DNA of 64,000 nucleotides from Halogeometricum limi (GTDB taxonomy: Archaea > Halobacteriota > Halobacteria > Halobacteriales > Haloferacaceae). The notes beneath the pieces were generated by a model. It worked only from the letters and a program-made list of their open reading frames with translations. It did no database searches and had not been told where the DNA came from. Where the stretch lies: the NCBI RefSeq assembly GCF_900115785.1, contig NZ_FOYS01000003.1:310001-374000 (forward strand), given 5' to 3'. Shown in pieces: positions 21,629-37,423 of the stretch; position 1 is the stretch's first letter, and every line of letters begins with the position of its first letter. Both the position numbers and the translations under genes were made by a program.

Positions 21629-22162
21629 ATGGCACAACCGCGCGTCCCGGGCGGCCGTGGTGAGGAACTCGACCTCCCGTGCGGGGAGACGAAACGGGTC
21701 CGAAGCCTCGACCTCGGTCTCCGCGAGTTCGACTGTCCCTGCGGCGAGGCGCACGCCGTCGTCATGGACGTGCACCCGCCGGAGCGGTTCTTACCCGAGT
21801 TCCTCGTCGCCGTCCTCCGCGAGGCGATAGAGACGACGAGCGAGGACATGCCCGAGTTCGGCACGCCGCACCTGATGGGCATCGTCTTAGAGGAGTTCCC
21901 GAAGCGCGTCGTCTCCGCGGACGTGAGCGACGACGGCGAAATCGGGACGGGAATCGTCTGGGTGACCGACTTCGACTCGCGCAGACTCCACGAGATAATC
22001 GTCGAACTCGTCGTCGAACTGATGGAACACGCCGTCTCGCACGCCGAGGACGACTCGGCCGTCTCGCAGTTCGAGACGCAGATGCTCGACTTCGACGTGA
22101 GCGAGTTCGTCGAACAGTACCGCGCGGAACGCGACCTGTCCGAAGACGACGTGTACGCGTAG
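21629..22162 (+). CDS. Haloarchaeal protein, DUF5815-like
   Basis: 177 residues, soluble, with a short N-terminal CXC pair region (LPCGETKRVRSLDLGLREFDCPCGEAHAV) that could bind a metal. The rest is alpha/beta (LPEFLVAVLREAIETTSEDM, RLHEIIVELVVELMEHAVSHAED). I recall this as DUF5815, haloarchaea-specific. TATA-like TTTAACC about 29 bases upstream. Confidence 0.78.
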   Translation: MAQPRVPGGRGEELDLPCGETKRVRSLDLGLREFDCPCGEAHAVVMDVHPPERFLPEFLVAVLREAIETTSEDMPEFGTPHLMGIVLEEFPKRVVSADVSDDGEIGTGIVWVTDFDSRRLHEIIVELVVELMEHAVSHAEDDSAVSQFETQMLDFDVSEFVEQYRAERDLSEDDVYA

Positions 22163-22311: not shown

Positions 22312-22346
22312 CTACGATATTCGAAACTGTGTTTCGTATCTCGTAG
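22312..22346. promoter_or_regulatory. 35-bp dyad upstream of carB
   Basis: Two 16-base arms around a TGT centre match at 14 of 16 positions: outer CTACGA/TCGTAG and inner CGAAAC/GTTTCG are perfect. The carB TATA-like element (CTTATTACG, about 22359-22367) begins 13 bases after it, and the carB ATG is at 22390. Position immediately upstream of the BRE/TATA suits an activator or repressor site. It could also be a hairpin after the DUF5815-like gene, but that gene ended 150 bases earlier. Confidence 0.6.
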
Positions 22347-22389
22347 CCTTTCGCCGGGCTTATTACGATGTGCTGATTTTCTACCCACG

Positions 22390-25300
22390 ATGACCGACGA
22401 GGACACCTCGACTGGCTCTCCCCAAGAGGGCGAGAACAGGACCATTCTGCTCATCGGAAGCGGGCCCATACAGATCGGACAGGCGGCAGAGTTCGACTAC
22501 TCCGGCGCGCAGGCGTGCCGAGCACTACAGGAAGAAGGGGCACGAGTCGTCCTCGTCAACTCGAATCCGGCGACGATAATGACCGACCCCGAGATGGCCG
22601 ACAAAGTCTACATCGAACCCATCACGACCGAGGCCATCTCCGAAGTAATCGCCACGGAGAACCCCGACGGCGTCATCGCCGGACTCGGGGGTCAGACCGG
22701 ACTGAACGTCACCGCCGAACTCGCCGAAGAGGGCGTGTTAGACGAGTACGACGTGGACATCATGGGGACGCCCTTAGACACCATCTACGCGACGGAGGAC
22801 CGCGACCTGTTCCGTCAGCGCATGGAGGACATCGGCCAACCGGTTCCGCGTTCGACCACTATCTCCTTAGAGGAAGACGAGGCGGTGTCGGGAATCACGG
22901 AGGACGATTTGGCCGAACGCGTCGAGGCGTCCGTCGACGCCGTCGGCGGCCTCCCCGTCATCTCCCGGACGACGTACACGCTCGGCGGGTCCGGGTCGGG
23001 CGTCGTCCACGAGATGGAGGAACTGAAAGAACGCGTGCGCAAGGGCCTCCGCCTCTCGCGCAACAGCGAAGTGCTCATCACCGAGTCCATCGCGGGCTGG
23101 GTCGAACTGGAGTACGAGGTGATGCGCGACGCCGACGACTCCTGTATCATCATCTGCAACATGGAGAACATCGACCCGATGGGCATCCACACCGGCGAGT
23201 CGATGGTCGTCACGCCGTCGCAGGTGATTCCCGACGAGGGCCACCAGGAGATGCGCGACGCGGCACTCGAAGTCATCCGTGACCTCGGGATTCAGGGCGG
23301 GTGTAACATCCAGTTCGCGTGGCACGACGACGGCACCCCCGGCGGCGAGTACCGCGTCGTCGAGGTGAACCCGCGCGTCTCGCGTTCGTCCGCGCTGGCC
23401 TCGAAGGCGACGGGCTACCCCATCGCCCGCGTGACGGCGAAGGTCGCACTCGGCAAGCGCCTCCACGAGATTGAGAACGAGATTACGGGCGAGACCACCG
23501 CCGCCTTCGAACCCGCCATCGACTACGTGGTGACGAAGATTCCGCGGTGGCCCAAGGACAAGTTCGACGACGTGGACTTCGAACTCTCGACGGCGATGAA
23601 GTCCACCGGCGAGGCGATGGCCATCGGACGGACGTTCGAGGAGTCGATGCTGAAGTGCCTCCGCTCGACGGAGTACGAACCGGCCGCCGACTGGGCGGAC
23701 GTCGGCGACGACGAACTCGAATCGGCGTTCCTCGAATCGCCGACGCCGGACCGTCCGTACGCCATCTTCGAGGCGTTCGACCGCGGCTACTCCGTCGAAG
23801 ACGTGGTGGAGATGACCGGCATGAAGACGTGGTACGTCGAACGCTTCAAGCGCATCACCGACTCCGTCGCCGCCGCGCAGGAGGGCGACTTCACCGCCGC
23901 CGCCACCGCGGGGCACACGAACGCCGAGATAGCCACCGCGACGGGGTCGGACGTCGGCACCGTCGAGACGCAGGTGCCCGGCCGCACGTACAAACAGGTC
24001 GACACCTGCGCCGGCGAGTTCGCCGCGCAGACGCCGTACTACTACTCCTCGCGCAAGCCGGAGTTCTTCACCGGTCCGTACGAGGGCGACGCCGCGGCGG
24101 GCGAACTCCGCGTCGACCGCGACGTCGAGAGCGTCGTCGTCGTCGGCGGCGGTCCCATCCGCATCGGGCAGGGCGTGGAGTTCGACTACTGTTCGGTCCA
24201 CGCCGTCCGCGCCCTCCGCGAGATGGGCATCGACGCGCACGTCGTCAACAACAACCCCGAGACGGTGTCGACGGACTACGACACCTCCGACGGCCTGTTC
24301 TTCGAGCCAATCACGGCCGAGGAAGTCGCCGACGTGATAGAGGCCGTCGACGCCGACGGCGTGATGGTCCAGTTCGGCGGTCAGACCTCCGTCAACATCG
24401 GCGAGAAACTGGAGGACGAACTCGTCCGTCGCGGCGTCGACTGCGAGATTCTCGGAACGACGGTGGAGGCGATGGACCTCGCGGAAGACCGCGACCGGTT
24501 CAACCGCCTGATGGACGAGTTGGAGATTCTCCAGCCCGAAGGTGGCTCCGCGACGAGTGAGGAAGAGGCGCTCGAACTCGCGAGCGACATCGGCTACCCC
24601 GTCCTCGTCCGCCCGTCGTACGTCCTCGGCGGCCGCGCGATGGACGTCGTTCACTCCGACGAGGAACTGAAGACGTACATCGAGGAAGCCGTCCGCGTCT
24701 CGCCGGACAAGCCCATCCTCGTGGACGAGTTCCTCGCCGACGCCGTCGAACTCGACGTGGACGCCGTCAGCGACGGCCGCCGCACGCTCATCGGCGGCGT
24801 GATGGAACACGTCGAGAGCGCGGGCGTCCACTCCGGCGACTCCGCCTGCATGATTCCGCCGCGGTCGCTCGACGCCGAGACGATGGCGCGCGTCCGCGAG
24901 GTGACCGAAGACATCGCCGACGCCCTCGACACCGTCGGCTTGCTCAACGTCCAACTCGCGGTCAAGGACGGCGACGTGTACGTCCTCGAAGCGAATCCGC
25001 GCTCCTCGCGCACGGTGCCGTTCGTCTCGAAGGCGACGGGCGTCCCCATCGCCAAACTCGCCGCACAGGTGATGGCGGGCGAGACGCTGGCGACGATGGG
25101 CGTCGACGAGCAGATTCCCGAACACGTCTCCGTGAAGGAAGTCGTCCTCCCGTTCGACCGTCTCCCGGGGTCGGACCCGCGTCTCGGCCCGGAGATGAAG
25201 TCGACGGGCGAGGTGATGGGAACGGCAACCTCGTTCGCGAAAGCGTACGACAAGGCCCAAGACGCGACGAACAAGTCCGTCCCCGCCGCGGGGACGGCCA

Positions 25301-33086: not shown

Positions 33087-33980
33087 ATGCGTGAGGAAAC
33101 CGTCGGCGCACTCCTCGTCGCCGGGTCCGCCGTCGGATTCGGCACGCTCGCGATATTCGGCAAACTCGCGGAGTCCGCGGGGTTGGGCCGGCCCTCCCTC
33201 CTGTTCTTTCGCTTCCTGGTCGGCGGCGTCCTCGTCTGGGCGTTCCTCGCGGTTCGCGGCGACGTGCGGGTGCTCTCGGGGCGGTCGGCGTGGTCCGCCG
33301 CCGGTCTCGGGACGATGTACGCGGTGTTGACTATCGCCTATTTCGCCGGTCTCGCACACCTCACGGCCGGGTTGGCGGCCGTCGTCTTCTTCACCTACCC
33401 GGTGTACGTGTTGCTGCTCTCGGCGACGTTCCTCGACGAACCGCTCACGCCGCGTCTCGTCGTCTCGCTGGCTCTCGCGCTCTCGGGACTCGGTCTCGTC
33501 CTCGGCGGCGACACCGCCGGTGCGACCCCACTCGGCGTCGTCCTCCTCGTCGCCGCGGCGGTGGGCTACGCGGTGTACATCGTCGGCGGCCGCGTTCTGA
33601 CGGCCGACACGCAGGGGAGCGTCCTCACGGCCCACGTGCTGACCGTGGTGACGGCGCTTCTCGGCGTCCGCTGGGTCGCACTCGGCGCACCGCTTCCCGC
33701 CGGTCCGACGCAGTGGGGTGTCGTCCTCGGCATCGGCTTTCTCGGGACGGGCGTCCCACTCGTCCTCCTGTACGAGGGTCTCGGCTCGCTGCAGGCCAAC
33801 CGGGCGAGCGTCCTCGGCACCGCCGAACCCGTCACGACCGTCGCACTCGGCGTGTTGCTCCTCGGAGAACCGCTGACGGCCGAGACGGCCGCCGGCGGCG
33901 GTCTCGTCCTCGTCGGCGTCCTCCTCTCGCAGGTCGACGACCCGTGGGGGACGGTCAGGCGGTCCATCCAGCGCGGATGA
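33087..33980 (+). CDS. EamA/DMT-family transporter
   Basis: 297 residues from ATG 33087 (MREETVGALLV), with about ten transmembrane helices in two EamA repeats: 1-140 and 150-290. The second repeat ends in LGTAEPVTTVALGVLLLGEPLTAETAAGG, the typical EamA signature. Likely exports an amino acid or metabolite; substrate not predictable. Divergent from the HerA-like gene with 107 bases between starts. Confidence 0.88.
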   Translation: MREETVGALLVAGSAVGFGTLAIFGKLAESAGLGRPSLLFFRFLVGGVLVWAFLAVRGDVRVLSGRSAWSAAGLGTMYAVLTIAYFAGLAHLTAGLAAVVFFTYPVYVLLLSATFLDEPLTPRLVVSLALALSGLGLVLGGDTAGATPLGVVLLVAAAVGYAVYIVGGRVLTADTQGSVLTAHVLTVVTALLGVRWVALGAPLPAGPTQWGVVLGIGFLGTGVPLVLLYEGLGSLQANRASVLGTAEPVTTVALGVLLLGEPLTAETAAGGGLVLVGVLLSQVDDPWGTVRRSIQRG

Positions 33981-37051: not shown

Positions 37052-37423
37052 TCACTCGCTGGCGACGACGCGAAGCGCGGGTAAGAGCCACTTCACCTGC
37101 GCGCCGTCTTCGACGAAGACGAGCGTTCGCGGCGGGCGGACGGCCTTCGGGCGGACGCGCAGTCCCTCGCTCTCGGCCGCCTCGGCGACGGCGTCCATCC
37201 GGGCGACGAACTCGACGCGCGCGCGGTCCGGGTGGACGAACACGTCGGCGACGCGTTCGCCGTCGCGTTCGATGGCGAAGGCGAACGCGCCGTCTTCCGT
37301 CGGTTCGACGTCTCGGTCGGCGTCGACCACCGAGAGCGACGCGAACGCGCGTTCGTGGCCCGTCACCTCGCTGGCGAGGAGTTGGGCGATGCGCTTTCCG
37401 TCCGTGAGTCGGTCCTCGACCAT
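37052..37423 (-). CDS. Hypothetical haloarchaeal protein
   Basis: 123 residues, soluble, acidic. MVEDRLTDGKRIAQLLASEVTGHER suggests an N-terminal helix, and DGAFAFAIERDGERVADVFVHPDRARVEFV a beta domain, ending in KAVRPPRTLVFVEDGAQVKWLLPALR. No motif recognised. Followed on the same strand upstream by the DUF2240-like gene 41 bases away, a likely operon. Confidence 0.7.
   Translation of the reverse strand: MVEDRLTDGKRIAQLLASEVTGHERAFASLSVVDADRDVEPTEDGAFAFAIERDGERVADVFVHPDRARVEFVARMDAVAEAAESEGLRVRPKAVRPPRTLVFVEDGAQVKWLLPALRVVASE

Follow-up and report, generated by a model that had tools for sequence, protein, structure and literature searches.

Conservation of a dyad upstream of carB

In a 64,000-nucleotide stretch of the Halogeometricum limi genome (hereafter, the window), carB is preceded by a 35-base inverted repeat, which raises the question of whether this dyad is a regulatory element and, if so, which protein reads it. 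A repeat search confirmed the dyad described by the first-pass annotation, with a left arm (CTACGATATTCGAAAC, 22312-22327) and a right arm (GTTTCGTATCTCGTAG, 22331-22346) that form 14 of 16 pairs (88% complementary) with 3 nt between them. Its placement immediately 5' of the carB TATA element also held, with the dyad 14 bp before TTATTA and the downstream gene identified as carB by its Pfam domains (Table 1). Pairing by itself is mildly unusual: a scan of the window for 16-nt arms with a loop of 0-8 and at least 14 pairs returned 4 entries, two of them overlapping, while 40 Markov-1 sequences of matching composition averaged 1.0 such entries, with 5 as the highest count. It is through conservation that the dyad exceeds chance. 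Further dyads with at least 14/16 pairs lie in the window at 33878 (loop 0) and 37251-37252 (loop 6-8). In the genome as a whole, the 35-bp palindrome pattern, allowing up to 3 mismatches, matched a single place, the carB dyad.

Table 1. Features of the carB promoter region, in window coordinates
Feature	Position	Strand	Remarks
DUF5815 protein gene	21629-22162	+	Upstream of carB
Probable operator site 1, CTACGATATTCGAAA	22312-22326	.	15-bp palindrome CG-N5-CG, centre 22319
Probable operator site 2, TTTCGTATCTCGTAG	22332-22346	.	Centre 22339, 20 bp from site 1
Possible weak third site, TTACGATGTGCTGAT	22363-22377	.	Centre 22370, 51 bp from site 1
Presumed BRE	about 22352-22359		Just 5' of TTATTA
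carB TATA element, TTATTA	22360-22365	+	Sequence; role presumed from ~28-nt spacing to ATG
carB, carbamoyl-phosphate synthase large subunit, 1078 aa	22390-25626	+	ORF, ATG at 22390; Pfam CPSase_L_D1/D2/D3

To assess conservation, genome contigs were searched with CarB, and 80 loci were kept, of which 67 are haloarchaeal (L002-L067 and L079); the resulting 67 alignment rows comprise 66 named relatives and the window. When anchored on the TATA block, 66/67 loci aligned gap-free, with L045 alone showing more than 4 mismatches to the anchor. The left half of the dyad is in exact register with the TATA box at 65/67 haloarchaeal carB loci and displaced at the other two. At L045, two CG-N5-CG sites are kept 20 bp apart, farther from the promoter, and at L030 site 1 is shifted by one base. 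Across the 67 rows, the 20 bp preceding the dyad carry a mean of 0.16 bit of information per column; the value rises to 1.44 at 22312-22326, falls to 0.35 in a 5-bp gap, and returns to 1.18 at 22332-22346. The promoter, at 1.45 bit per column over 22347-22378, is thus as conserved as the dyad, and TATA columns 22360-22364 are invariant, with 22365 at 1.89 bits. The DUF5815 gene is also a conserved neighbor of carB, present in the upstream flank of 44 of the 67 loci.

A wider search gave the same picture. A 58-bp ungapped pattern running through the TATA box, with at most 3 mismatches, matched 177 of 194 genomes of the class and 58 of 65 genera, and its reversed control had zero matches in the 194 genomes. 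All 17 genomes missed by the pattern were opened and scored with a matrix derived from carA and carB sites in the named genomes; 15 have a site scoring at least 19.8 before carB, among them L155, where site 2 (19.9) outscores site 1 (15.0). For the remaining two, G071 and G179, no operator was found before carB. The first-pass annotation had named a lack of conservation in relatives as the outcome that would speak against its reading, and the opposite is clearly the case: the dyad is a real conserved regulatory element just 5' of the carB TATA box.

The information profile argues against one long palindrome with 16-bp arms, as conservation splits into two 15-bp palindromes around the variable gap. 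A pair of distinct 15-bp palindromic sites of the TTWCGAWWTTCGWAA type, 20 bp apart, describes the 35-base dyad better. At two carB promoters (G104:C12:467930 and G125:C1:29369), decay of site 1 is accompanied by a change of site 2 into TACGAAATTCGTA, a pattern suggesting that the two sites undergo compensating turnover.

With its 3-nt loop and its position about 150 bp past the DUF5815 stop codon, the inverted repeat might also act as an RNA hairpin, either as a carB attenuator or as a terminator of the DUF5815 gene. We regard this as highly improbable. The dyad lies upstream of the presumed TATA box, and so would be outside the carB transcript expected from TTATTA; the conserved part is the CG-N5-CG of each half, not covarying arms; the dyad is kept where DUF5815 is not found upstream; and the same motif is present in the trh3/carA gap described below.

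A matching site between trh3 and carA

A genome search suggested by the first-pass annotation found the same motif at carA. When up to 3 mismatches were allowed, the two-site pattern had one match in the genome besides carB, C3:589214, in the 97-bp gap between carA and a divergent gene for a 140-aa Lrp/AsnC protein, here called Trh3. This protein has an AsnC-type HTH and a RAM domain (PF13404, 67.1 bits; PF01037, AsnC_trans_reg, 49.1 bits; both above cut-off), and its gene lies ~257 kb from carB. We then sought carA in 50 of the 67 named genomes and obtained 49 long matches (none in G018), which together with the window genome gave 50 gaps. At 49/50 of these loci trh3 is divergent from carA. 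Likewise, carA site 1 differs from TTACGAATTTCGTAAC by 0-2 mismatches in 49/50 gaps and by 5 in L113, and it stands 65 or 66 bp from the carA start in 48/50 and 62 bp in the other two, with start codons as we chose them.

In two lineages, insertions between trh3 and carA provide natural experiments on autoregulation. In Haloparvum (G014; L147, 1684-5195), the one exception among the 50 loci, trh3 lies ~3 kb from carA and each side carries the perfect-type TTACGATATTCGTAAC. In Halorubrum cibi (L107), a 794-bp gap has a site at either end: TTACGAAGATCGTAA, 31 bp away from where trh3 starts, and TTACGAATTTCGCAA, next to carA.

A matrix built from the carA site alone was then scanned over carB. 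It gave three peaks, with mean scores of 18.9 at 22319, 7.7 at 22339 and 1.0 at 22370 (next, -16.4), and so ranked the two halves of the dyad as the top two carB sites. For site 1 the window score is 19.3, and 66/67 rows exceed 5 in exact register, the one miss being L030; site 2 scores 8.3 in the window, above 0 in 62/67 rows and above 5 in 50/67. The possible third site, which overlaps the TATA box, is degenerate in the window genome (-5.6) and exceeds 0 in 51/67 rows and 5 in 2/67; a column-permuted null reached its observed mean in 0.0007 of 3000 draws (17 rows). The best offsets from site 1 are +20 in 67/67 rows and +51 in 64/67.

In the reciprocal scan, the carB matrix scored 24.7 at carA site 1 and 4.2 at a +52 site over the start codon (13.5 when +51 is also allowed). 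The second carA site is only a half, scoring -9.2 at +20, which is the best offset in 21/50 loci, and a peak of 3.5 at -7 comes from an overlapping half-site. The third-site offset at carA is +51 in 12/50 loci and +52 in 38/50. The distance from site 1 to TTAT is 48 in carB and 35 in carA, a difference of 13 bp; the third-site offsets therefore agree (51 in carB, 51-52 in carA) while the TATA distances differ. At 25 loci, a GAGAT-N-CG element is also found next to the trh3 start. The spacings between sites correspond to two, three and five helical turns and would suit a single multi-dimer Lrp complex.

Extent of the regulon

To measure specificity, the exact 15-mer TTWCGAWWTTCGWAA was searched in 51 genomes (25 + 26), a search that misses variants. 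It occurs at 56 places in 41/51 genomes: 40 in the trh3/carA gap and 14 at carB, with one more at trh3 in G014, where that gene has moved, and 1 elsewhere. Thus, 55/56 exact sites are at trh3, carA or carB. The exact site is absent from 10/51 genomes (2/25 and 8/26), where there are variants alone. The remaining occurrence, G016:C11:61795, was taken as chance, with no recognized arg, pyr, trh3 or car gene downstream among ORFs inspected by eye.

The first-pass annotation had also proposed looking for the motif near arg and pyr genes. Apart from carA, this expectation was not supported in the window genome, where the single-site pattern with up to 2 mismatches occurs at 13 places. The 11 non-car places look chance-like, several being within ORFs, and carA and carB alone look real. 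At five of the 11, no arg or pyr family was found among the seven flanking ORFs scanned, which matched YdjM, glyoxalase or nothing; the other six were judged from the ORF listing. Outside haloarchaea, T-N-CG-N5-CG-N-A is absent from the 160 bp before carA at the 7 loci checked.

Identity of the regulator

Based on the motif, on synteny and on ChIP in a relative, the dyad is very probably the operator through which the Lrp/AsnC-type (feast/famine) regulator Trh3 acts on carB. The first-pass annotation knew of no archaeal regulator for this motif, a view that the literature overturns: a Trh3 circuit has been published for Halobacterium salinarum, with sites predicted at trh3, carA and carB and confirmed by ChIP (PMC4177876). 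The carB promoter motif is conserved in 18 halobacterial species according to the legend of Fig. S7 in the same source, and we matched the window dyad to the published motif by gene and position, not by logo comparison (PMC4177876). The H. salinarum NRC-1 circuit resembles that of the window genome in having an Lrp-type regulator divergent from carA, with sites at the regulator gene as well as at carA and carB; in contrast, carB adjoins carA in NRC-1, whereas the two are ~257 kb apart here. In H. salinarum, expression of carA and carB is correlated (0.69; PMC4177876). Two published observations speak against the assignment: trh3 correlates only weakly with carA and carB (0.45 and 0.40; PMC4177876), and deletion of trh3, which is VNG1816G there, is listed in a table as having no growth effect (PMC4236453). 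Arg, Gln or Lys are predicted as Trh3 effectors (PMC4236453).

Another Lrp paralogue, or several feast/famine regulators (FFRPs), could conceivably recognize the operator, rather than Trh3 alone. Overlapping targets and similar motifs are described for H. salinarum FFRPs, especially Trh3 and Trh4, in sections of PMC4236453. We nevertheless consider this reading unlikely, given that the best site is syntenic with trh3 itself and that the site is duplicated where trh3 and carA have parted (Haloparvum and Halorubrum cibi). Joint loss in G179, despite the persistence of five weaker Lrp relatives, argues in the same direction. This genome (one contig, 98% complete) has kept carA (66%) and carB, but the protein in it that best matches Trh3 reaches 34% across residues 1-91 (E 6.8e-10), compared with 75% in G186 of the same family, and no operator was found at its carA (best score 4.0) or carB. 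Judging from these comparisons, a close trh3 has disappeared from G179 along with both operators.

The second genome with a site-less carB, G071 (120 contigs, 98% complete; L168/L178), has a Trh3 of 57% identity encoded at another place, with TTACGAAGTTCGTAA 54 bp before the trh3 start. There, trh3 is followed by genes for a LysW/ArgW carrier (TIGR01206, 60.9 bits; cut-off 53.2) and LysX/ArgX (TIGR02144, 326 bits; cut-off 275.6) and by argC, which is cut by the locus end; a carbamate kinase gene lies upstream, with an extra site-like 15-mer inside its end. No site was found at carA or carB in G071 despite the presence of trh3 with its operator, and the trh3-car link is thus not universal. No second genome with this arrangement was found, the G071 family holding one genome. 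A site present only where the regulator is fits both site-less carB genomes among the 194, although these are only two cases. The trh3-argW-argX-argC cluster is possibly an ancestral, or else a rewired, arginine regulon. Arginine is a candidate effector because trh3 with its own operator heads this cluster and because of the published Arg/Gln/Lys prediction.

Among NCBIfam models, the best for Trh3 is LysM, the regulator of lysWXJK in Sulfolobus solfataricus described in parts of PMC2995911. The score of 119.2 bits lies below the curated cut-off of 180 for the LysM equivalog NF040947; the proteins of G071 and G184 score 113 and 110, and five other haloarchaeal Lrp proteins 46-67 (two partial). 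The likeness extends to G071, where trh3 precedes argW-argX-argC, relatives of lysW/lysX, while the usual haloarchaeal targets of Trh3 differ in being carA and carB instead of a LysW/ArgW operon. Among orthologues whose DNA specificity has been measured, TvFL3 of Thermoplasma volcanium is described as the closest; its specificity fits the carA and trh3 sites, and lysine is listed as its effector; this likeness is by published description, not by sequence (passages of PMC4177876 and PMC2995911).

Mode of action

We propose that Trh3 dimers would bind the 15-bp palindromes, with the carB pair two helical turns apart just upstream of the BRE/TATA and the weaker third site three turns further on, over the TATA box. 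With the shared trh3/carA promoter under the same motif, an autoregulated Trh3 could match expression of both subunits of an enzyme that supplies arginine and pyrimidine synthesis and whose genes have ceased to form an operon, and coexpression of carA and carB is published for H. salinarum (in part of PMC4177876). An amino-acid effector, probably arginine, may promote a multi-dimer complex over the sites that excludes TBP/TFB, such that carA, carB and trh3 would be repressed in plenty and released in shortage. Repression by occlusion is the mode toward which we lean.

Alternatively, Trh3 may be an activator of the kind proposed for Ptr2, LysM and Ss-LrpB, with its dimer at site 2 recruiting TBP under scarcity of arginine or another effector, a possibility that we take seriously without favoring it. 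About 5-6 bp separate the end of site 2 (22346) from the presumed BRE. Passages of PMC2995911 describe a dimer site a few bp 5' of the BRE as shared by Lrp-type activators, which speaks against pure repression, and list LysM, the best family model for Trh3 (below its cut-off, as noted above), as an activator. In contrast, the half-site and third site of carA overlie the BRE/TATA and the start codon, and carA site 1 adjoins the presumed trh3 promoter, both of which suit repression; moreover, the unequal site-to-TATA distances in carB and carA are unlike the constrained position of an activator.

Origin and meaning of the circuit

The core finding, that Trh3 binds at trh3, carA and carB, is already known from H. 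salinarum. The additions made here are the count of 55/56 exact sites, the co-loss in G179, the argWXC linkage in G071 and the weaker third site 51-52 bp from the first in both carB and carA. The passages of published Trh3 texts available within the open-licence PubMed Central literature contain no such regulon count and no mention of the co-loss, the linkage to argWXC or the geometry of three sites. Specifically, the parts of PMC4177876 on H. salinarum NRC-1 describe neither a pair of carB sites 20 bp apart nor a third site, and mention neither the co-loss nor the argWXC link; those of PMC6801745, on another Lrp (HVO_A0307), make no mention of the haloarchaeal carA/carB tags searched.

Like Trh3, bacterial ArgR and PurR control carbamoyl-phosphate synthase genes for arginine and pyrimidines. 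They act on a carAB operon, whereas Trh3 acts on two parted genes, and ArgR and PurR belong, going by name, to protein families unrelated to that of Trh3.

In non-haloarchaeal loci, carA is directly 5' of carB on the same strand in 9/13, while in haloarchaea carA falls within the 2.5-kb flank of carB, and is then convergent, in 10/67. This implies that an operon may have been split up, with the separated genes retaining or acquiring matching operators. Speculatively, Trh3 could correspond in haloarchaea to LysM, as a sensor of arginine that was formerly linked to argW-argX-argC, as it still is in G071, and then re-aimed at the split carA and carB. A three-site array of fixed geometry (0, +20, +51/52 bp) lying over both promoters, whatever the position of the TATA box, and wrapping DNA might then make two unlinked genes act as one operon, with loss of the array or of trh3 taking both together.

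The circuit shows an archaeal route in which a small dedicated regulator replaces an operon for subunit genes hundreds of kilobases apart, with matching carA and carB operators kept in nearly all sampled haloarchaea. Its narrow regulon, in which all but one of the exact sites are at three genes, offers a clean system for Lrp-type action on a TBP/TFB promoter, and the G071 lineage makes both the arginine effector and the rewiring of the regulator directly testable.
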